Shown one piece after another: positions 47,577-62,319 of a stretch of 64,000 nucleotides of DNA; position 1 is the first letter of the stretch; the number at the start of each line of letters is the position of its first letter. The DNA comes from an uncultured Poribacteria bacterium. Its GTDB lineage: Bacteria; Poribacteria; WGA-4E; WGA-3G. Under the pieces are notes generated by a model. It ran no database searches. It saw nothing but the letters and a program-made list of their open reading frames with translations, and was not told where the DNA came from. Made by a program: the position numbers and the translations under genes. The stretch covers positions 3,587,200-3,651,199 of the forward strand of contig OX639973.1 in NCBI GenBank assembly GCA_951828385.1. The letters run 5' to 3'.

Positions 47577-48812
47577 TTGAACACACATTATAATAACTGT
47601 GTGCGGTGCTTTAGCCACACCCCGTCACGATTAAAACACTTGGATAGGTCCGGTGTTGCGCTATCGTTCCTACGGTTCGCATTCATAGCGTGTATCGCGC
47701 TCAGTCTTTTTTTGCCCACTGATACAGAGGCGCGGCCTGAGTTCGCAACCGAACTTGAAAAAGAGTGTAGTTTTTGCCATCTCGATCCAGCAGGCGGTGG
47801 TCCCCGAAATCGCATCGGTGAAATTTTTGAAGAGAACTATTTTGAATTTCCCGAAGATTTCGACATGGAAGCCGTGACGGAAGAAGCGAAGGAGGTAGTC
47901 AAACAACTCACAACATCGCTTGACTTCCAGACTGCATTCATCAAAACAACACATGTTGACGAAGAGCAAAATGCTATAGCCAGCTGTAATTCATGCCACT
48001 CCTCAATTGACAGATTTCTGCTGATGCAAGCAGAAGTAACATTCAATGCGCAAGCCTCAGAACACATCAGACTTACGCTTTCTAATAATGCAGGCACAAC
48101 GATGAATGCGTTCGCAACGGTAGATGCTATCCCAAAACACCTCTATGTCAAAGTTGGGCAATTCCGTCTCCCGTTCGCTATCAAACAGAAAGATCACAAC
48201 ATACTTGTCCGGGAAGGTTACGGCCTCGGTTCTAACAAACGGGATGTCGGGGTTGAACTTGGTGGCAGTACGGGTAAAGTTTTTTACACTGCGGCCTTTT
48301 TTAACGCCAATAACGCTGCAGCAAAAGGCGGTCTCGGCACAGTTGGTGCGCAACTCGGACCGGTTCGAGCCGGTATTTCTGGTATACTCGAAAACCCCGG
48401 CGAAGACTGGGAACGCCTTATCGGTGCCTTTCTCACTGCATCCTACGCCGGTCTGAGTGTAGAAGGAGAATTCAATTTTGGAAACAGTGGAGAAGTCGCC
48501 TCTTTCGCATCGGATGACATCAACTCAAAGGGATACTATGTCGGTGCAAAATATCGCGTCCTGCCCCAGCTCACTGTTGCAGGCAAATACGGATTGTTCG
48601 ATCCAGATAGAACAGTTAAGGGGGACGCAAGCCAGCGGGTGACACTCAGTGCCCAATACAATTTCATGGAAAACGGGGCAATCTCGCTGTTTTACTGGGC
48701 AAACCTCCCTAATGCTGACCGCGGCAAAGATGATACCATCCAAGACAAAGGCACATTACGTCAACTCCAAGGCACAGACCAAATTATTTTGATGTCACGG
48801 TTCTGGTTCTGA
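47577..48812 (+). CDS. Outer-membrane beta-barrel protein with two N-terminal haem c motifs
   Basis: 411 residues. The TTG start at 47577 follows AAGGAG; the longer frame overlaps the previous gene and lacks a site. Signal peptide ends TEA-RP (about 52). Two haem c motifs follow: CSFCH (about 64) and CNSCH (about 141). From about 165 the chain is made of alternating beta-strands with GVELGGSTGKVFYTAAFF, VGAQLGPVRAGISGI, GYYVGAKYRVLPQLTVAGKYG and GAISLFYWANL. It ends in MSRFWF, with the C-terminal Phe typical of outer-membrane barrels. A porin-like transport of electrons through the outer membrane is inferred. Confidence 0.82.
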   Translation: MNTHYNNCVRCFSHTPSRLKHLDRSGVALSFLRFAFIACIALSLFLPTDTEARPEFATELEKECSFCHLDPAGGGPRNRIGEIFEENYFEFPEDFDMEAVTEEAKEVVKQLTTSLDFQTAFIKTTHVDEEQNAIASCNSCHSSIDRFLLMQAEVTFNAQASEHIRLTLSNNAGTTMNAFATVDAIPKHLYVKVGQFRLPFAIKQKDHNILVREGYGLGSNKRDVGVELGGSTGKVFYTAAFFNANNAAAKGGLGTVGAQLGPVRAGISGILENPGEDWERLIGAFLTASYAGLSVEGEFNFGNSGEVASFASDDINSKGYYVGAKYRVLPQLTVAGKYGLFDPDRTVKGDASQRVTLSAQYNFMENGAISLFYWANLPNADRGKDDTIQDKGTLRQLQGTDQIILMSRFWF

Positions 48813-48869
48813 AGATTGTTCACTATAGAACACAATTTGATTTGCGACTGCATCAAAATACTTACCTTT

Positions 48870-48895
48870 AGGGACGGATACAGATATCCGTCCCT
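48870..48895. terminator. Perfect 11-bp hairpin
   Basis: AGGGACGGATA-CAGA-TATCCGTCCCT, 57 bases after the haem-barrel stop. Likely terminator. It is the first of several elements in the 344-base gap before the alpha-2-macroglobulin gene. Confidence 0.75.
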
Positions 48896-48916
48896 ATGTG
48901 TTTATATTTACACATA
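48895..48916 (+). promoter_or_regulatory. Putative activator-binding dyad upstream of the -24/-12 promoter
   Basis: TATGTGT-N8-ACACATA, a 7-bp dyad 103 bases before the promoter at 49019. The distance is typical for an upstream activating sequence of a sigma-54 activator. It does not share the sequence of the three sites at 62203-62261. Confidence 0.4.
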
Positions 48917-49018
48917 ACGCCACCTAAAGACACTTTTCTAATCTTTTTCTAACAAGTTTGAACCCCGCCTAAACCTGACTATCCTTTCTTAAACGCTTCG
49001 TACAAAGCTCCCAAAACT

Positions 49019-49035
49019 TTGGCATGAAAATTGCT
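49019..49035 (+). promoter_or_regulatory. Sigma-54 (-24/-12) promoter for the alpha-2-macroglobulin/PBP1C operon
   Basis: TTGGCATGAAAATTGCT matches the consensus TTGGCAYG-N4-TTGCW, with GG and GC exactly 10 bases apart. The start of transcription would lie about 110 bases before the ATG at 49157. A leader hairpin (GTTATAAGT at 49085-49093 pairing with ACTTATAAC at 49117-49125) follows. Confidence 0.75.
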
Positions 49036-49156
49036 TAAGCTATCCAGTATCTTTTTGCTACTATATTCGTTAAAAAGGTTCTAAGTTATAAGTAAAGAGG
49101 TTTCATTTCACTCTTAACTTATAACCAACACCTCTAAAATAAAGGAGGCACTTCTC

Positions 49157-52100
49157 ATGGTGTTTTCCAAACTTTCCAAAAATCTTTCGGTGGAACCTGA
49201 GAACCGAAATTTGTTATTAAAAAGCTTAATCGGGGTCATAGGATTGATGACGCTACTCCTCGGTGCCTGCCTTTTCTATATTGTGCGGGGAAATGTGGGT
49301 GCCAAGACGCGGTACAGTGTTAACACCTTCGCCCCCCAAGGAGAAGTCCCGCAGTGGACTGATTTTTCGATTACTTTTTCGGAGGGAATCGTTGATAAAT
49401 CGCGCGTCGGGACAGAAGTCCCCGTGGAAGCCCTTCGGTTCACACCCGCCGTTCAAGGCACTGCGCGCTGGGTAGCACCCGATAGAATAGGTTTCTTTTT
49501 AGACGCACCTTTAGCACCCGCCGCACAATACACTGTCAAACTCACATCCGAAATCAATCCATCTGAAGTATTCCAACTTACCGGGCAAAAAGAGTTTGAA
49601 TTCGCCACAGAACCCTTCGCAGTCCAGCAGACACGCATGGAATTTAACACTGACGAGTCACGTGAACACGCAATAGGTGTCGGCACAATCACATTTAATT
49701 ATCCAGTAACGACCGCCGATTTAAAGGCGCATCTCTCTATTGAATTAGATGATGGCACAGAAATTCCGTATCAGATTCAAACCAACACCGTGACAGCGCG
49801 GACAATAACATTCGAGACGAAACGGATAAAACGCAGCGACGTAAACCAAGAAATAAAAGTCAAAATTGAAAAGGGATTTAAATGTACAGGAGGGGAAATC
49901 GGTCTGGAAAAAGCAAATGTTACACCGGTAATACTGCGCGGTAGAGGCACCCTCGGTGTAACATATTCAGACGTTCGGGAAAGTGACGGGACCCCTTATA
50001 TTTCAGTCAGTTTTAACGCGCCAATACTCAGCGATACGGTTGAACCTTATCTTGAAGTTACACCCGCAGTCGACTATCAAGTGACATCCAATTATCGGAA
50101 CATTAGAATCCACGGTAATTTTAAGCGGCGTACCACTTACACACTGAAGATTCGGCGCGGTTTGACAGCACGAGACGATGCGGTTTTAAAAGGGGACTAT
50201 CTGACGCGGTTCAAAATTCCAGACATTCGACCGCAGCTGCGGTTCCTTGGCGACGGCTTCTTTCTCGCGAGAAAAGGACACCTAAACCTTGGACTCACAA
50301 CGATTAACGTTAAACGTGTAAAACTCAATATTGAGAAAGTTTTTGCGAACAATCTCATCTATGTATCAAGATTAGACAGATGGAGCCGATGGAGTCGGAA
50401 TTTAGGCAAACCTGTTCATTCGGAAGTGCTTGATATACCACCTCAATTGAACGAAGAGGTAACGACACCCATCTCCTTAGAGGACTATCTCGCGGATGAA
50501 CATGTCGGTATCTTCAAGGTTGTGGCGCAAAACGCTGATAAGCAGTGGGACAGCGCGCATCAATGGGTGCTCATCACAGATTTGGGGATCAGTGCGAAAC
50601 GCGCCGGAGATAATTTATACGTTTGGGTGAAATCCATTGCTACTGGCGCACCGGTGCCAGCAGCGCGGGTCCAACTCATCAGTAACAACAACCAGACGCT
50701 GCTCAACGGTACAACGAACTGGGCAGGATTTGTGGAGTTCACCGAGGTCGCAGAGAAGACAGAAGACTTCATACCGTTTATGATTACCGTTGCGAAACGT
50801 GACGATCTCGCCTTTATTCAATTAGACAGGCATGAAATTGCAACAGCAGACTTTGACATCGCAGGCCCTGCCTATTTGCAAAAAGGCTATGAAGCATTTC
50901 TTTATACAAGCAGGGGCGTTTATCGCCCCGGTGAAACTGTTCAACTCGCTGGCGTTGTCCGAGGACCGAAGCAAGCGACACCTGAACCGCTCCCCACCCG
51001 CATCAAAATCCTCTCACCGGATGGCAGAATCATGCGAGAATTAAGGCAGCAGACTAACAAAAGTGGCGCCTATGAGGTGAAAATTCCGATTCCTGACTAC
51101 GCGCTAACAGGCAACTATATCGCTAAGATGCAAATCGCTGATCGAGTCGTTGGCAGCACGCAATTTCAGGTCGAGGAATTCATGCCAGACCGGATGAAAG
51201 TTGCCATAACCGTTGATAAATCCTCTTATAAACTCGGAGACGAACTCAGCATTGAAGTCAACGCTATGAATCTGTTCGGACCCCCAGCCGTCGGACGGAA
51301 AACTCAGGCTTCATGCCAACTGCAAGCAGTTCCGTTTGTCGTTTCTGATGACGCTTTACCCCCAGGGACAGATGTCGAAAAGTGGCGTTCCTTCGTTTTC
51401 GGAAACACCAGACAATTTGAAAGTCAACGGATTGAATTAGGAGAAGCCAAAACCGATGCAGACGGTAAAGCACGTTACCAATTCACTGTTCCCGCAACAT
51501 TGAAAGCCCCCTCTTTACTCAACGGTATTCTAACAGCAACTGTCAGTGAGGTCGGCGGCAGAGCTGTCACTGCTTCACACCGAGTTGTTATCCATCCGTA
51601 CTCGCACTACGTCGGGGTTCGGCGGGCAACTACTGGAGAGGTCAAAATCAACCAACCGCTTCGCTTCGATTACGTAGCTGTTGACGATACAATGGCAGTT
51701 ACACCCGGTAGAGCCTTAAAACTAAGCCTCCACAAAGTCCATTGGAACACGATCCTTCGGCAAAACGCGGCAGGACGTTACGCGTACGTTTCTGAACCGC
51801 AGATGACAGAGGTGAAAACATACACACTCACTTCGGCGGAAACAGCACAAACAGCGACATTCACCCCTACAAGCCATGGTGAATACCGTGTTCGCCTCGA
51901 GGACATCGAATCAACGGCAACAGCGGAAATAGGATTCTACGCGAGTGGTTGGAGAAACACCCCGGTCTCTATGGAACATCCCACCCGATTGGATTTGGTG
52001 CTTGACAAGCCTGCCTATCGTCCGGGACAGACAGCAAAACTGAATATCAAGGCACCCTTCCCGGGTACACTCCTGCTCACGGTCGAACGAGAACGGGTAC

Positions 52101-54841
52101 TCAGTCACCGAACGATAATAATGAAAGAAAATACAGCAACCGTGTCAATTCCGGTACGGTACGGTTATAAACCGAACGTGTACCTCTCAGCAACACTGAC
52201 GCGAACTATCCCGATGGATACGGTATCACAACCAGACAACAAGTCGCTTCTCCCCGCACGCGCGTTTGGTGTGATTCCCTTGAAAATAGATGCAACGCGG
52301 AGACGACTCTCAATTGAAATGTCGCTCAAGCCTGATGGCGATCAGCAAGAACGAATACCGCTTACCGATAACCGCGGGAAACCGATAACCGATGGTTTTC
52401 AATCTGAGGCAGTTGTGCGTCCAAACAGCGAGATAAACATCGCGTTCGAGGTCCATGGCAGACGCTCCTGGCAGAAATATGATGTTTGTATCGCAGCTGT
52501 TGACGAGGGGATCCTCGCGTTAACCGACTTCCAAACACCCAACCCCCACGACTTTTTCTATCAACAACGCGGGTTAAAGACACGCGCTTTTGATCTGTAT
52601 AGCGGGATTCTACCGGAAATCGCGGATGTCACCGACAACTCAAGCACAGGTGGTGATGGGGCAGCTGCACGTGGATTAGGAAGAAAGCGGTTGAATACGA
52701 GCAGTATCAGGCGTGTAAAACCGGTTTCACTTTGGTCAGGATTCGTGCAAACCGATGGAAATGGGCGCGGTACAGTCCAATTCAAGATTCCACAGTTCAA
52801 TGGGGAATTAAGATTGATGGCAGTCGCTTTCGCCGGAGCAGATTACGGTGCCACGGAAGCGTACTTGACCGTCCGAGAACCTATTGTCTTAACACCGACT
52901 TTCCCCCGATTCCTTGCAGGCGGCGATAAGATCCGAGTGCCAGTTACCCTTTTCAACGGCACAGGTGAGCCTGGCGAATTCACCGTCAAATTGCGAGGAT
53001 CGGGAGACGTGCAACTATTGTCAGCGAGCACCCGTAATACCTCTGAAAAGATGCCTGAGAATACACCGGAAAAACCAGCGCAATCACCAACAATGGAGCC
53101 TCCGCTACACGAACTCAGTGTGGAGACAACAGTTGAAGCCGGTACAGAAGCACAAGTCTTTTTCGATATTCGTGCTCAGGATGCGCTCGGAGAAGTCAAT
53201 TTTAATCTATCTGCAGAAGGTAATACTGAGATGACGCAAATGGATGTGAAGCTGCCGCTGCGTTCTGTCGCGCCACCCGTCACAAAAACAGGACATGGGG
53301 TGGTACGCGCGGGCGAACCGGTCGATTTTATTCTCCCCGCGAACTTAATAGCAGATTCATCCGAGTTTAGTTTGACATTATCACCGTTTCCCAATATTGC
53401 GTTTTCGGATAGCCTCCGTTATCTTGTCCGCTATCCACACGGATGTCTGGAACAGACAACAAGTAAAGTTTTCCCGCTGCTCTATTTCAGTGATCTGGCG
53501 CGAAGCGTCGAACCGATGCTCGCAGCAGAAGACTCGGTGGATTATTATATTACGTCCGGTATCACAAAACTTGAAAGTATGCTGATGTCGAACAATCAGT
53601 TTTCGTACTGGCCCGGTGGCACTTATGTGAATCCGTGGGGCAGTATCTACGCGTCTCACTTTCTCGTTGAAGCTCGAAAAGCCGGCTATGAGGTAGCAGA
53701 CCGTGTTTACGACGCGATGCTCGAAGGTTTAAAAACACAGGCAAAATTTTCACCTGACACGGAAGACAAAAATGACGCTAAAAAAGTAAGGACAAACATC
53801 GCACTCGCAACCTATGCGTCTTATGTCTTGGCTGCTGCTGGACAACCCGATCGTGGCACGATGCACTATCTGAAAAACAGGGGGGCGAGTGGTCTCAGTG
53901 ATTACAGTCACTTCCAACTTGCCGGGGCATTTGCCCTCAGCGGCGAACTGGAAACTGCCCTTTCAATGCTACCGGTATCAGTCTCGCTGAGTTTTAATGG
54001 TAAAGGCAATCCTGGGTGGGAAACAGGTGGCACATTTAATTCGCCGATCCGAGCGCAAGCGATTATGTTGGATGTGCTTACAGAAGTTAACGAAAACCAT
54101 CCATCCATTCCGATGCTCGTTAAGAATTTGAGTGAGGCAGCCGCCGATGGAAACCGATGGCGGACAACACAAGATAATGCCTTCGCATTCCTCGCACTTG
54201 GTAAGATTATGAAGAAACAAGCAGATAGGAATTACAACGGCACTCTCAAACTCAATGGTGAACACTTCGCTGATTTTGATGCGACTGAGACGCGCTACAC
54301 CGATGCCGCATGGGATGGGGCGCGCATACAACTCAACATCAAAGGCGAAGGGAGTTGCTACTATTACTGGAGTGCGTTCGGCATCCAACGCGATTCGTTT
54401 ATCGAAGAATATGAACGTGAATTACAGGTCCGCCGTCGGTATTTTAACAAAGATGGTGAGGAGCTCACCGGCACGTTTGTACACGGCGACTTAATCGTCT
54501 CAGAGATAACAGTCAAAGCACTAACAGCCAACCTGGAAAATGTCGTCGTCGTCGATATGTTACCAACAGGTTTTGAGATTGAGAACCCACGTTTGGAATC
54601 CCGAGCAGGCATTCCATGGCTGAAAGCACAAGGTTTCAAACCTGACTATATCGACATTCGCGACGATCGACTCATCTTCTTCGGCACGTTCCCGCGCCAA
54701 CGTGAACGTAAATTCTATTACGCGCTAAGGGCGGTGACACAAGGTGAATTTACTTTACCACCTATCGCTGCGGAAGCGATGTACGATCCAACAAAATCTG
54801 CTGTAACGGGTAGTATGAATATCAAAGTGGTTCCAGAGTGA
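49157..54841 (+). CDS. Alpha-2-macroglobulin family protein with thioester
   Basis: 1894 residues. N-terminal hydrophobic anchor about 25-46 (LIGVIGLMTLLLGACLFYIV); LLGAC could be a lipobox, as in E. coli YfhM. Repeated Ig-like MG domains follow, including YEAFLYTSRGVYRPGETVQLAGVVRGP. A bait-like linker and the conserved thioester motif HGCLEQTTSK (about 1428) are present, followed by the alpha-helical ring (TSGITKLESMLMSNNQFSYWPGG...). Bacterial A2Ms trap proteases in the periplasm. The AAAGGAGG ribosome site precedes the ATG. The next gene, pbpC, overlaps its stop, the classic YfhM/PbpC pair. Confidence 0.95.
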   Translation: MVFSKLSKNLSVEPENRNLLLKSLIGVIGLMTLLLGACLFYIVRGNVGAKTRYSVNTFAPQGEVPQWTDFSITFSEGIVDKSRVGTEVPVEALRFTPAVQGTARWVAPDRIGFFLDAPLAPAAQYTVKLTSEINPSEVFQLTGQKEFEFATEPFAVQQTRMEFNTDESREHAIGVGTITFNYPVTTADLKAHLSIELDDGTEIPYQIQTNTVTARTITFETKRIKRSDVNQEIKVKIEKGFKCTGGEIGLEKANVTPVILRGRGTLGVTYSDVRESDGTPYISVSFNAPILSDTVEPYLEVTPAVDYQVTSNYRNIRIHGNFKRRTTYTLKIRRGLTARDDAVLKGDYLTRFKIPDIRPQLRFLGDGFFLARKGHLNLGLTTINVKRVKLNIEKVFANNLIYVSRLDRWSRWSRNLGKPVHSEVLDIPPQLNEEVTTPISLEDYLADEHVGIFKVVAQNADKQWDSAHQWVLITDLGISAKRAGDNLYVWVKSIATGAPVPAARVQLISNNNQTLLNGTTNWAGFVEFTEVAEKTEDFIPFMITVAKRDDLAFIQLDRHEIATADFDIAGPAYLQKGYEAFLYTSRGVYRPGETVQLAGVVRGPKQATPEPLPTRIKILSPDGRIMRELRQQTNKSGAYEVKIPIPDYALTGNYIAKMQIADRVVGSTQFQVEEFMPDRMKVAITVDKSSYKLGDELSIEVNAMNLFGPPAVGRKTQASCQLQAVPFVVSDDALPPGTDVEKWRSFVFGNTRQFESQRIELGEAKTDADGKARYQFTVPATLKAPSLLNGILTATVSEVGGRAVTASHRVVIHPYSHYVGVRRATTGEVKINQPLRFDYVAVDDTMAVTPGRALKLSLHKVHWNTILRQNAAGRYAYVSEPQMTEVKTYTLTSAETAQTATFTPTSHGEYRVRLEDIESTATAEIGFYASGWRNTPVSMEHPTRLDLVLDKPAYRPGQTAKLNIKAPFPGTLLLTVERERVLSHRTIIMKENTATVSIPVRYGYKPNVYLSATLTRTIPMDTVSQPDNKSLLPARAFGVIPLKIDATRRRLSIEMSLKPDGDQQERIPLTDNRGKPITDGFQSEAVVRPNSEINIAFEVHGRRSWQKYDVCIAAVDEGILALTDFQTPNPHDFFYQQRGLKTRAFDLYSGILPEIADVTDNSSTGGDGAAARGLGRKRLNTSSIRRVKPVSLWSGFVQTDGNGRGTVQFKIPQFNGELRLMAVAFAGADYGATEAYLTVREPIVLTPTFPRFLAGGDKIRVPVTLFNGTGEPGEFTVKLRGSGDVQLLSASTRNTSEKMPENTPEKPAQSPTMEPPLHELSVETTVEAGTEAQVFFDIRAQDALGEVNFNLSAEGNTEMTQMDVKLPLRSVAPPVTKTGHGVVRAGEPVDFILPANLIADSSEFSLTLSPFPNIAFSDSLRYLVRYPHGCLEQTTSKVFPLLYFSDLARSVEPMLAAEDSVDYYITSGITKLESMLMSNNQFSYWPGGTYVNPWGSIYASHFLVEARKAGYEVADRVYDAMLEGLKTQAKFSPDTEDKNDAKKVRTNIALATYASYVLAAAGQPDRGTMHYLKNRGASGLSDYSHFQLAGAFALSGELETALSMLPVSVSLSFNGKGNPGWETGGTFNSPIRAQAIMLDVLTEVNENHPSIPMLVKNLSEAAADGNRWRTTQDNAFAFLALGKIMKKQADRNYNGTLKLNGEHFADFDATETRYTDAAWDGARIQLNIKGEGSCYYYWSAFGIQRDSFIEEYERELQVRRRYFNKDGEELTGTFVHGDLIVSEITVKALTANLENVVVVDMLPTGFEIENPRLESRAGIPWLKAQGFKPDYIDIRDDRLIFFGTFPRQRERKFYYALRAVTQGEFTLPPIAAEAMYDPTKSAVTGSMNIKVVPE

Positions 54842-57504
54842 TGAAAAAAATCAGAATGGAAAATTCTTCGACTTGGAGATTGGAAGATTGGAAGATTGGA
54901 AGATTATGGGACAATCCATCCTTCCCTCTTTCCAACCTTCCATTCAAAAAACTATTTTGGCTGCTATCCCCACTCTTTGTTATTCTTATTTTTATGATAG
55001 CGAGCTGGTGTTTCCCGCTGCCCAAAACACGCCTCCATCCGCCACCCTCTCGGATTGTGTTAGATCGAAACGGGGAATGGCTTCGCGCGTTCTTAGCTGA
55101 GGATGGTATGTGGCGATTTAGCCATCAGCAGTCAGCCGTCAGCAGAGAGAATGGAAGGCTGGAAGAAAAGATGAATGGTGAGGTTCCAATCTTCCAATCT
55201 TCCAATCTTCCAACCAAACGCCGAAAACCGAAAGCCGATGGCTATTTTGGTGTCTCCCCACTATTACACGAAGCAATGCTAACAACAGAGGACAGATGGT
55301 TTTACTACCACTGCGGGATCAATCCGGTGTCTATGGTAACTGCCCTCTACGATAATGTGAAAGCCGGAGAAGTCGTGCGCGGTGGTTCAACCATCACTAT
55401 GCAGCTTGCGCGACTCATGGAACCGAAGGCACGAAATGTTCCAAATAAACTGATTGAAATGTTTCGAGCCATCCAACTTGAACTGGCATATTCTAAATCT
55501 GAGATCCTAAACCTCTACTTTAATATGCTTCCCTACGGCGGGAATATCGTTGGAACAAGCGCAGCATCCCGGTTTTATTTCAACAAACCGCAGTACGCAA
55601 TAAGTCTTAGTGAGGCGGCGCTCCTTGCTGCTATTCCGAACGCACCCGAACGTTTGCGTCCAGACAGATTTCCAGAAAATGCTCGGCAGGCGCGAGCAAA
55701 AGTACTGAACCGCCTCCACGCACGCGGACATATTTCCGAACAGCAGTGGCAAGAAGCATTGCGAGAACCCATACCGACAAAACGTCACCCACTCCCATTC
55801 AAAGCACCACATCTCTCACGTATGTTGGCTAACGGAAACCGATGGAACACAGAAACCACAGCAGATAGCAGGATATACACGACAATAGACGCGAAGGTCC
55901 AAGAAACAGCCGTGCGCATCCTTCGCGAATATCTGAATGCGTCCGCTGTTAGCATTGCGGATTCCCGCCGCTTGCAATCCCATACTGCAAGCACAGGGGC
56001 CATTGTGGTTATGGACACGCAAAGTCGCCACGTCTTGGCAATGGTAGGTTCCCACGATTTTTTCGATCAAAGGGCATTGGGGCAAATAAACGGCACACTC
56101 GCATCGCGTTCCCCAGGTTCCACACTTAAACCTTTCGTCTACGCCCTTGGCATCGAACAAGGCTTGATTACGCCAGAAACATTGCTCTTTGATGTCCCTG
56201 TTACATACAGTGGATATGAACCGGTGAATTATGATGGCACGTATAACGGCTATATTACCGCTCGTCAGGCACTTGCTCGCTCCCTCAATGTCCCTGCCGT
56301 GAACCTCCATGCGCGTCTGAAAAACAAGTCACTGCACGCTTTTCTTAAACAAGCAGGTATCTCCACACTCGCACCTGCCAAAAAGTACGGACTCTCTATG
56401 GTCCTCGGTGGCTGCGAAGTCAATCTGCTTGAGTTGACAACACTTTACGCAGGGCTGGCAAATATGGGAGAATTCGCGCCTTACCAAATCGTCATCAGTG
56501 GTCAGCAGCAGTCAGAAAACCTTCTTGCTGACAGTCGAGGGAAACTGAGGGAAACTGAAGGCTATTCACAACGTCTATTCCGAAAAGAGACGAGTTTCAT
56601 TATAACAGAGATGCTAACAACCTCACAATTGCCGGTCAACACTGTCAAAAACCCAGAAGCCTTTGAGGTGACCATGAATCTACCGAAAATTGCTTGGAAA
56701 ACCGGCACTTCTTATGGACATCGGGATGCGTGGTGTATCGGGTATTCACCGCAATTAACAATCGGTGTGTGGCTCGGCAATTTTGATGGAAAAGGTGCGC
56801 CGATGCTAAGCGGGACAGACGCAGCAACTCCTGTTCTATTCGCACTCTTCAATGCCCTCACACGACAAGACACGCATCGTTGGTTTACGGGACCTGAACA
56901 ACTGAAGATGCGAGAAGTTTGTGCGCTCACAGGTGCTCCCCCGTCCCTACACTGTCCTACGCGTAAAAACGATGTATATATCCCCGGCATCTCGCCTGTT
57001 AAAGCCTGTGCGATTCACAAACGCATCTATATTGATGAAATCACCGGTTACAGTCTCTGCTCTCACTGTCGGAATCTTCCGAGGACAGAAAAAAATTATG
57101 CTCAGCATGACACAAACGTACAGACGAAAATATTTGAAGAGTGGCCCGCCGAGGCGGCGACATGGTTGGCAAAAAATGGGTTCGCTGTGCCAGTGCTTCC
57201 GAAGCACAACCCATTGTGTACAGGCACAATTGCCGGGACTGCCCCGGTCATCCTATCTCCCACAGAAGACACCGTGTACTACATACGCGATGGGGTCCCA
57301 TTAGAACAGCAAAAGATACAATTGTCAGCCTCGACTTCCAACCGGACACAGCAGTTATTTTGGTTTTTGGATGGTGAACTGATTTTCAAAGGAAACGCGG
57401 GGCAGCCGCATTGGCTCACCCCTGTAAAAGGGGAACACGTACTCACCTGTGTAGATGCGGAGGGGCGTTCAGCAAGCCGCCCACTCCACATTTCAATTTT
57501 TTAA
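54841..57504 (+). CDS. pbpC: Penicillin-binding protein 1C (PbpC), with repeat-derived insertions
   Basis: About 887 residues. The start is the ATG overlapping the A2M stop (TGATG). One membrane helix about 37-56. Transglycosylase: TTEDRWFYYHCGINP (catalytic Glu) and RGGSTITMQLARLM. Transpeptidase: SPGSTLKPF (Ser-x-x-Lys, about 421), SLNVPAV (SxN) and KTGTSYG. The C-terminal domain with CPTRKND and CAIHKRIYIDE is the BiPBP_C type. It polymerises and cross-links peptidoglycan and repairs A2M-linked damage. Three inserts (about 11-37, 93-128, 551-575) are encoded by short repeats (TTCCAATC and CAGTCAG units) without a frame break. Confidence 0.95.
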   Translation: MKKIRMENSSTWRLEDWKIGRLWDNPSFPLSNLPFKKLFWLLSPLFVILIFMIASWCFPLPKTRLHPPPSRIVLDRNGEWLRAFLAEDGMWRFSHQQSAVSRENGRLEEKMNGEVPIFQSSNLPTKRRKPKADGYFGVSPLLHEAMLTTEDRWFYYHCGINPVSMVTALYDNVKAGEVVRGGSTITMQLARLMEPKARNVPNKLIEMFRAIQLELAYSKSEILNLYFNMLPYGGNIVGTSAASRFYFNKPQYAISLSEAALLAAIPNAPERLRPDRFPENARQARAKVLNRLHARGHISEQQWQEALREPIPTKRHPLPFKAPHLSRMLANGNRWNTETTADSRIYTTIDAKVQETAVRILREYLNASAVSIADSRRLQSHTASTGAIVVMDTQSRHVLAMVGSHDFFDQRALGQINGTLASRSPGSTLKPFVYALGIEQGLITPETLLFDVPVTYSGYEPVNYDGTYNGYITARQALARSLNVPAVNLHARLKNKSLHAFLKQAGISTLAPAKKYGLSMVLGGCEVNLLELTTLYAGLANMGEFAPYQIVISGQQQSENLLADSRGKLRETEGYSQRLFRKETSFIITEMLTTSQLPVNTVKNPEAFEVTMNLPKIAWKTGTSYGHRDAWCIGYSPQLTIGVWLGNFDGKGAPMLSGTDAATPVLFALFNALTRQDTHRWFTGPEQLKMREVCALTGAPPSLHCPTRKNDVYIPGISPVKACAIHKRIYIDEITGYSLCSHCRNLPRTEKNYAQHDTNVQTKIFEEWPAEAATWLAKNGFAVPVLPKHNPLCTGTIAGTAPVILSPTEDTVYYIRDGVPLEQQKIQLSASTSNRTQQLFWFLDGELIFKGNAGQPHWLTPVKGEHVLTCVDAEGRSASRPLHISIF
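54871..54950. repeat. TTGGAAGA/TTCCAATC octamer repeat inside pbpC
   Basis: GATTGGAA repeated about three times, then a CTTTCCAACCTTCC arm, encoding residues 11-37 of PbpC. It is one of three repeat patches in this gene; the others are near 55119-55225 and 56492-56565. Confidence 0.75.
55119..55225. repeat. CAGTCAG plus TTCCAATC repeat inside pbpC
   Basis: CAGCAGTCAGCCGTCAGCAG, then GGAAGGCTGGAAG, then TTCCAATC three times. It codes for residues about 93-128. Matches of the CAGTCAG module also lie outside genes at 14216 and 60744. Confidence 0.75.
56492..56565. repeat. CAGTCAG repeat inside pbpC transpeptidase
   Basis: ATCAGTGGTCAGCAGCAGTCAG and a doubled GGGAAACTGA. It codes for residues about 551-575, between conserved parts of the transpeptidase domain. 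Confidence 0.65.
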
Positions 57505-59115: not shown

Positions 59116-59535
59116 ATGCCACTCAAAATCGCTAACAAAAAGCGTGATTACCGAACAACGCAGAAAACAATCTATAGTTGTCAATATCACGTGATTTGGT
59201 GTACCAAGTATCGTCGTAAGGTTTTAGACACACAGATACAAGGGCGTCTAAAACAACTCATACGAGAAAAACAAAACGAATATGACTATCAAATCAGAGA
59301 AGTTGAAACTCAACCTGAACATGTCCATTTACTGATAGAAATACCGCCCACACATTCTGTTGATAAAATCGTTGGCAAAATCAAAGCCTATACCGCTAAA
59401 GTTTTGCGAGAAGAATACCCGTCCCTGAAAAGTCGTTTACCCTCTCTGTGGACACGTTCAAAATTTGTAAGTTCTTGTGGCGGTGTAACGCTCCAAGTCA
59501 TGAAGGACTATATTGAAGGTCAAAGCGGACAATGA
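59116..59535 (+). CDS. tnpA: TnpA, IS200/IS605-family Y1 transposase (copy 2)
   Basis: 139 residues. HUH in EHVHLLIEIPP and catalytic Tyr in MKDYIEGQ. It overlaps tnpB by four bases (ATGA). Amino-acid differences from copy 1 occur only near the two ends (NKKRDYRTTQK versus NKKRNYKTSNK; TLQVMKDY versus TLEIIKDY). Confidence 0.95.
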   Translation: MPLKIANKKRDYRTTQKTIYSCQYHVIWCTKYRRKVLDTQIQGRLKQLIREKQNEYDYQIREVETQPEHVHLLIEIPPTHSVDKIVGKIKAYTAKVLREEYPSLKSRLPSLWTRSKFVSSCGGVTLQVMKDYIEGQSGQ

Positions 59536-60644
59536 GAAAAGCCTACAAGTTCAAACTTCAGAACCAGTCTAACATAGTGAAGATTGGTAATATGATTGAC
59601 GATATGTGGCAGATACACCTCCATATTATGCTGCTTGACCGTAGATATTACCGTATATTTGGTAAGAACCTATCAATATCTTGCCTAAATGCACACGTTG
59701 CTAAACTCAAGAAGACGACAAAACCGCATTGGAAAGATTTGCCGAGTCAAGTTGTGCAAGACGTTGTTCTGCGATATGGCAAATCGCAAGACGCATTTTT
59801 TCAGAACATAGAAGACCGCAAAGCAGGTTTGACGACCCGTAAAGTGGGTAGACCGAAAATCAAACCGCGTCACAAATACACCTCTATGACGTTCACACAA
59901 GCGGGCTACACACTTGAAAAAAATCGTATCAAAATCAACTGTATAGATACGTGGTTCTCCTTCCACAAACACCGTGAAATCAACGGGACAATCAAGACGA
60001 TCACACTCAAACGTGACAGGTGCGGTGACTATTGGATATGCTTTTCGTGCGAGAATGTTGATGATTCGGAACCGAAACCCAAGACGGGTAAGAGCGCAGG
60101 GTTTGATTACGGAAACAAAACATTCCTCACAAGCGACGCAGGCAACAAGATAGAATCTCCGCAGTTTTTCAAACAATCCCTGAAAACGTTGCGATCCCTG
60201 AGCAAAGCGCTGAGTCGTAAAGTCAAAGGTTCTAATAATTGGTGGCGTTGTGTTCGTGCTTTGGCAAGGCACCACAGAAAAGTCGCCCGCCAAAGAGAAG
60301 ATTGGCAGTGGAAACTTGCTGACGAACTTTGCACGGAGTTTGATACGCTCTGTTTTGAAACCCTGAACCTTGACGGTATGAAACGGCTTTGGGGACGCAA
60401 AGTCTCTGACCACGCCTTCTATCAGTTCATACAGATATTGGAACAGAAGTGTGCAAAGCACGGTAAAAAACTGAAAAAAATCAGTCAATGGACAGCAACG
60501 ACAAAGCCTTGCAGTGATTGTGGATACCCTAATCAAGACCTCTCTCTTTCAGATAGACAGTGGACATGTCCCGAATGTGGTTCACACCACGACAGAGACA
60601 TCAACGCTGCTATCAATATCAAACGGGCGGGCTTGGCCGCCTAA
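59532..60644 (+). CDS. tnpB: TnpB, RNA-guided RuvC nuclease (complete)
   Basis: 370 residues, standard TnpB length. RuvC Asp in GFDYGNKTF (about 191), Glu in LCFETLNLDGM (about 276) and the final Asp in HHDRDINAA (about 355). Zinc finger CSDCG and CPECG (about 328-352). TnpB proteins use a right-end-derived RNA (omega RNA) to cut DNA next to a transposon-adjacent motif. All catalytic residues are present, so it may be active. It is the reference for the truncated fusion at 36257. Confidence 0.95.
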   Translation: MRKAYKFKLQNQSNIVKIGNMIDDMWQIHLHIMLLDRRYYRIFGKNLSISCLNAHVAKLKKTTKPHWKDLPSQVVQDVVLRYGKSQDAFFQNIEDRKAGLTTRKVGRPKIKPRHKYTSMTFTQAGYTLEKNRIKINCIDTWFSFHKHREINGTIKTITLKRDRCGDYWICFSCENVDDSEPKPKTGKSAGFDYGNKTFLTSDAGNKIESPQFFKQSLKTLRSLSKALSRKVKGSNNWWRCVRALARHHRKVARQREDWQWKLADELCTEFDTLCFETLNLDGMKRLWGRKVSDHAFYQFIQILEQKCAKHGKKLKKISQWTATTKPCSDCGYPNQDLSLSDRQWTCPECGSHHDRDINAAINIKRAGLAA

Positions 60645-61033: not shown

Positions 61034-62104
61034 ATGATGCAGAACCAAAAGACAGGAAAAAATACCTACGGAGATCTGGTCTCCCCAGAAACGTCGTTAT
61101 CAAGAGAGAAGTTGCATGGAAACTACAAGAGCATTCTCGGCGAGAGTGCGGGGCATCTTGAAGTGCTACAACAGGTTGATATGTTTGCTAAATCTTCTCA
61201 AACAGTGCTCATTTCCGGCGAGACGGGGACAGGCAAAGAGCTGATCGCTGCTGCCTTGCATGCAGAGAGCCTCCGGGGCGGGCACACCATGGTCGTCGTC
61301 AGCTGTGCGGAGATTGCGGAGAACCTGACAGAAAGTGAACTCTTTGGACACGAGAGGGGCGCGTTTACCGGTGCCGATCAGCAACATATTGGGCTATTTG
61401 AAACCGCATCGAGGAGCACCCTGTTCCTTGACGAAATCGGGGAACTTCCGATGCGCCTACAACCGAAGTTGTTGCGGGTACTTCAGGAAAACAAGATTCG
61501 CCGTATGGGCGGGACAGCACAGATTCCAGTGTCAGTCCGCGTGCTGGCAGCTACGAATATCGACCTTAAAGAAGCAGTTGCAGCAGGCAAGTTTCGCCGA
61601 GATCTCTATGAGCGATTAAAATCCCTTCATATCCAGCTGCCGGCACTACGGGAGCGGCGGGAAGATATTCCAGCGTTGGCAAAACACTTTTTGATAAAGG
61701 AAAACAACTCTTCAAGTCGAAAAGTAGCGGACATAAATTCGGAAGTCCTCTTGTTATTTGATGCCTATAGCTGGCCTGGGAATATTCGAGAGTTGGAAGG
61801 CATCATCGGTCGTGCCGTACTCCTAGCGGAAGGGAGTGAAATCCTACCGCCCTACTTACCGTCAGATGTGCGGACACCTCAAGCCCACGCATTACCGTCG
61901 GCCGATGCAACAGCCGCAGCAAATCCTAACGCCGCAGAATATTTCGTGCTGCCCTTCCCGATAGGGACAACTTTGAAAGAGATAGAGAAGTCAGCCATCT
62001 TGGCAACTTTGGCGCGAGAGAATGGGAATCAATCAAAAACGGCGAAGTCTCTGGGGATAGATCGGCGTACCTTGCACAACAAACTACGCGACTACAACAT
62101 GTAA
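61034..62104 (+). CDS. Sigma-54-dependent transcriptional activator (AAA+), no receiver domain
   Basis: 356 residues. AAA+ core: Walker A GETGTGKELIA (about 66), ESELFGHERGAFTGADQQ with the GAFTGA loop that contacts sigma-54, LFLDEIGELP (Walker B), and PALRERREDIPALAKHFL. A Fis-type helix-turn-helix at the end: KTAKSLGIDRRTLHNKLRD. No response-regulator or GAF domain precedes it; the first 35 residues are a short linker. Activity may therefore be controlled by level or by a separate partner. The target is likely the operon at 62420, which has a -24/-12 promoter and three upstream dyads. Confidence 0.93.
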   Translation: MMQNQKTGKNTYGDLVSPETSLSREKLHGNYKSILGESAGHLEVLQQVDMFAKSSQTVLISGETGTGKELIAAALHAESLRGGHTMVVVSCAEIAENLTESELFGHERGAFTGADQQHIGLFETASRSTLFLDEIGELPMRLQPKLLRVLQENKIRRMGGTAQIPVSVRVLAATNIDLKEAVAAGKFRRDLYERLKSLHIQLPALRERREDIPALAKHFLIKENNSSSRKVADINSEVLLLFDAYSWPGNIRELEGIIGRAVLLAEGSEILPPYLPSDVRTPQAHALPSADATAAANPNAAEYFVLPFPIGTTLKEIEKSAILATLARENGNQSKTAKSLGIDRRTLHNKLRDYNM

Positions 62105-62302: not shown

Positions 62303-62319
62303 TTGGCATGATACTTGCT
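62303..62319 (+). promoter_or_regulatory. Sigma-54 (-24/-12) promoter for 62420 operon
   Basis: TTGGCATGATACTTGCT matches TTGGCAYG-N4-TTGCW with the GG-GC distance of 10 bases. About 100 bases before the ATG at 62420. Confidence 0.85.

Follow-up and report, generated by a model that had tools for sequence, protein, structure and literature searches.

Comparative evidence for a sigma-54 promoter ahead of the alpha-2-macroglobulin and pbpC genes in Candidatus Poribacteria

The bacterial alpha-2-macroglobulin (A2M)–PBP1C module is known from Escherichia coli, where it is represented by YfhM and PbpC. One table in PMC5493296 lists E. coli yfhM/pbpC among sites of minor sigma factors, none of them sigma-54, and a passage of PMC12316311 describes, for Planctomycetota and Bacteroidota, chaperone promoters predicted to depend on sigma-54. 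The locus considered here lies in a window (the whole stretch of DNA that was analysed) of 64 kb from genome G000 of the sponge-associated Candidatus Poribacteria, which comprises 6.66 Mb in a single contig. It shares with the E. coli module the gene pair and its order, the bait region and the thioester, and with promoters of the sigma-54 (RpoN)/NtrC family a -24/-12 element, a sigma-54 gene, AAA+ activators with a Fis-type HTH and a dyad approximately 100 bp upstream.

The first gene of the pair (49157..54841, + strand) encodes an A2M of 1894 aa, which is classed as the thioester type by its MG domains, bait region and CxEQ thioester (present as GCLEQ), and which matches the Pfam models MG2, bMG3, bMG5, bMG6, A2M_BRD, A2M and bMG10. 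It is followed by pbpC (54838..57504, + strand), encoding penicillin-binding protein 1C with Transgly, Transpeptidase and BiPBP_C domains; its product scores 699.6 bits against the equivalog model TIGR02073, for which the cut-off is 494.2. Because the start of pbpC overlaps the stop of A2M, the two genes are predicted to be co-transcribed. Between pbpC and an activator gene further along the window are two ORFs (59116-60644), which by eye resemble genes for an IS200/IS605-type transposase and a TnpB-like protein.

Upstream of A2M, the sequence TTGGCATGAAAATTGCT (49019-49035, + strand) matches the -24/-12 consensus TGGCAYRNNNNTTGCW with 0 mismatches, its -24 GG and -12 GC doublets being correctly spaced and matching the consensus around them, with 121 bases separating it from the A2M ATG at 49157. 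A dyad, TATGTGT-TTATATTT-ACACATA, precedes the element by 102 bases, at 48895-48916. The original prediction had given the sequence and coordinates of this element, 121 bases before A2M, and had described a TATGTGT-N8-ACACATA dyad about 100 bases further upstream; both descriptions prove to be exact. Only one other exact match to the consensus occurs in the window, at about 62303-62319, and matches with no more than two mismatches are at chance level (31 observed vs 32.7 expected), so that the window alone is insufficient as proof of a promoter. Across the whole of G000 there are 58 exact matches, vs 5 for the reversed pattern, greatly exceeding chance, and as part of the 58 fall inside long ORFs, not all of them are promoters. 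One such match (L017, 347324-347339) sits by eye between the repeats of a CRISPR-like array, and probably arises by chance. With regard to the necessary machinery, the genome encodes sigma-54 (PF04552 match, E 4.8e-58) along with 13 NtrC-type AAA+ activator domains at E < 1e-40.

Including G000 itself, 57 of 60 relatives contain an A2M match, and 36 genomes belong to the same genus, in 32 of which the sequence ahead of the A2M match start extends for 1000 bp or more. The other four were excluded from the genus count, namely G014 (L051, 0 bp upstream), G003 (L058, 224 bp), G007 (L071, 239 bp) and G034 (no 5′ end); similarly, the upstream region of L088 (146 bp) is too short for the element test. 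Within 600 bp of A2M, the element is present with 0 mismatches in 29 of the 32 genomes and with no more than one in 31. At this latter threshold, the reversed consensus upstream of A2M and a 600 bp segment from within A2M itself each yield 0/32, whilst an element match is reached by none of 1500 random windows (mostly coding) and by 2 of 1230 mononucleotide-shuffled upstream regions. All 31 same-genus upstream regions that harbour the element also possess the dyad, with 0–3 mismatches of 25. The sequence flanking the element and its distance from the gene vary among same-genus genomes, with the element lying 69 to 513 bp from the A2M match start across relatives. When 28 of the 31 upstream regions are aligned (L052, L069 and L076 were omitted for their long dyad–promoter spacing), the element and the dyad show mean column identities of 0.97 and 0.99, respectively, vs 0.63 for the 85 bases leading up to the element. 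A comparison of relatives had been set as the check on the original prediction, and with the element retained in 31 of 32 genomes it did not refute it; the proposal of a sigma-54 promoter gains support from this conservation, which carries the decisive weight, and from the presence of the sigma-54 and activator genes. By comparative evidence, the predicted sigma-54 promoter ahead of A2M–pbpC is real.

The best explanation, to which we assign a probability of roughly 0.87, is that the A2M–pbpC operon would be read by sigma-54 polymerase from 49019-49035, with an NtrC-type activator at the dyad opening the complex on signal. Specifically, sigma-54 RNA polymerase would wait at the element as a closed complex, the activator bound at 48895-48916 would contact it by DNA looping, and the complex would be opened with ATP when the signal arrives. 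Looping, induction, a signal of envelope damage and co-transcription of A2M with pbpC are what we infer for this system, and the defence pair is probably signal-induced rather than constitutive. Since sigma-54 promoters are near-silent without an activator, on–off control of a complement-like protease trap would be implied in an uncultured animal symbiont. The proposed system is a compact one, comprising one dyad, one promoter and six candidate activators.

These six (L005, L006, L007, L009, L011 and L013) are the core of the G000 activators, which are AAA+ proteins with a Fis-type HTH. They are defined as reciprocal best hits among G000, G009, G021 and G060, with identities of 62–91 % in the latter three; G060 is the genome of L151, which has the element without the dyad. 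Five of the core activators contain a receiver domain and L005 does not. One of these six probably controls A2M. The activator encoded in the window itself (61034-62104) was not supported as the A2M regulator, as its best matches are 47–49 % identical in G009 and G021, and 40 % identical and non-reciprocal in G060, placing it outside the core. As for autoregulation, none of the 13 activator loci contains the A2M dyad. Nor does an altered recognition helix in the dyad-less G060 point to the activator, as the helices of the core six are similar in all four genomes and single out no candidate, in a comparison made without the four weakest activator matches (one in G021 and three in G009). As a separate observation, the window activator is without a receiver domain and is followed by the second exact element (62303-62319) and then by a gene whose product is membrane-anchored or secreted. 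Comparable pairs of activator and element are found elsewhere in G000 (L012/L035, L008/L044 and L004/L117), and these pairs look lineage-specific.

In G000, groEL, dnaK and an hsp20 gene likewise lie behind exact elements, as judged from translations of the genes (L103 at 4668186, L122 at 6289409 and L023 at 1371534-1371635, respectively), with hsp20 having three elements in tandem. Among same-genus loci whose upstream sequence spans 300 bp or more, the element is found at 0 mismatches in 27/27 for groEL and in 23/24 for dnaK, the single miss being L189 with only 365 bp upstream; one groEL and three dnaK loci stand outside this count. A dyad, TGCCAAWWTGGCR, which differs from that of A2M, occurs no more than 200 bp upstream in 27 groEL and 23 dnaK loci (1 mismatch allowed), and exact copies exist at 4 places in G000, three of which are the groEL, dnaK and hsp20 promoters. 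A third recurrent motif, approximating to GCCCCATTTYGTGCA, is seen by eye upstream of sigma-54 elements at L115, L022, L113, L033, L111 and L089, and is perhaps the site of another activator. The chaperone elements suggest that stress signals feed sigma-54 in the Poribacteria host and, taken together with the A2M site, point to this factor as a stress controller in the lineage; the chaperone set may hold greater interest than the promoter of A2M. A broader scheme, offered tentatively and at somewhat less than even odds, is that sigma-54 would be the main stress sigma factor of Poribacteria. Here, one activator would run groEL, dnaK and hsp20 via TGCCAAWWTGGCR and a second, dedicated activator would run A2M–pbpC via TATGTGT-N8-ACACATA, and the symbiont would arm its protease trap only when signalled to do so, for instance by proteases of the host or of competitors.

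The same survey bears on the nature of the signal, which could be metabolic (nitrogen or carbon) rather than envelope damage in an operon that is nonetheless sigma-54-dependent. Such an arrangement would be in keeping with a glnA-like gene of G000 (judged from translation) that also has an exact element, and with the receiver-domain core activators, which score best against the NtrC or AtoC models of NCBIfam, with all scores below cut-off. We consider it rather unlikely, however, as the A2M dyad is single in G000 within 3 mismatches, and thus not visibly common to glnA, and the chaperone targets argue for stress signals reaching sigma-54.

The dyad is likely an enhancer for the sigma-54 activator, according to its pattern of conservation. 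Its spacer is conserved as well as its stem arms, and the 17 bases that follow (48917..48933) form a conserved extension, with a mean column identity of 0.89 vs 0.63 over the next 85 bases. The distance from the centre of the dyad to the -24 GG is 94–126 bp in 28 genomes and 214, 217 and 249 bp in three, and this freely varying spacing fits what an enhancer would tolerate. Helical phasing of this distance was uninformative, as the Rayleigh R at 10.5 bp is 0.39, vs 0.31–0.45 across all periods from 9 to 12. The dyad adjoins a terminator-like hairpin of the upstream gene (48869..48896, + strand; 12 pairs by terminator scan), which many relatives share but some lack. Hairpin and dyad fold jointly at z -6.8, with the dyad forming a second stem in RNA, and one may therefore suppose that the promoter is real, but that the dyad belongs to a double terminator, with the activator binding elsewhere. 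The uniqueness of the dyad, meaning that no second target backs a binding-site role, favours this, as does the occurrence of the element without the dyad in distant relatives. For example, of five loci taken as outside the 36 same-genus genomes, L151 and L153 (A2M 54–55 % identical) have a perfect element and no dyad, L131 and L150 have both, and L146 (A2M 68 % identical) has A2M with neither. Against it, the spacer and extension lie outside the stem and are conserved regardless, L064 retains the dyad despite lacking the hairpin, the right arm and extension remain intact in L077 and L076 where the left arm is weakened, and in L146 dyad and element are lost jointly. A terminator role is consequently judged improbable, and an activator site is preferred.

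Counter-evidence to the sigma-54 reading as a whole comes from G016 (L070) and L146, which have A2M without the element, and from four of eight other order or class members, in which there is none. Amongst these eight, G036, G039 and G048, which are of other families and without the dyad, retain the element with one mismatch and G049 with two, whilst G038, G040, G042 and G051 display none with up to two mismatches within 620 bp of A2M; G040 has two 2-mismatch sites, each more than 800 bp away. In G016, neither the element (at no more than one mismatch) nor the dyad was found within 1500 bp upstream of A2M, nor was the end of the gene that normally lies upstream. By eye, the 700 bp upstream of A2M in this genome are rearranged, contain a tRNA-like sequence as well as a TTGACA-N18-TATCTT resembling a sigma-70 site, and represent a possible natural promoter swap. 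An operon that is constitutive or mainly of sigma-70 type, with an incidental or minor -24/-12 match, is nevertheless very improbable, for although G016 indicates that a different promoter can precede A2M, a simple consensus scan of 48700-49300 found no scoring sigma-70-like site and the element is conserved beyond chance in 31 of 32 genomes. Beyond the principal A2M loci, G027 carries a second A2M-like gene (L089), preceded at 78 bp by a perfect element, and all 30 named loci encoding A2M relatives are from Poribacteria.

With regard to published systems, the original prediction took sigma-54 control of A2M/PBP1C to be apparently undescribed, and in agreement with this no link between macroglobulin and sigma-54 was found in the literature searched, which leaves most subscription papers outside; the novelty of the link is limited to that literature. 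In PMC8855297, both macroglobulin and sigma54 occur, the former in the reference list. The predicted sigma-54 regulons of other phyla, as presented in parts of PMC12316311 and PMC3162934, are alike in having envelope genes, groEL, dnaK and small heat-shock genes as targets. They are unlike the present case in that macroglobulin, COG2373 and Poribacteria are absent from the main text of PMC12316311, as is macroglobulin from that of PMC3162934, so far as the accessible text of each extends. The locus differs from the E. coli YfhM/PbpC module in its apparent sigma-54 control, and from other sigma-54/NtrC-family promoters in having A2M–pbpC as the target and a dyad sequence particular to this operon. 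A2M–pbpC, in this respect, adds a target to a promoter class already known and does not amount to a new kind of system.
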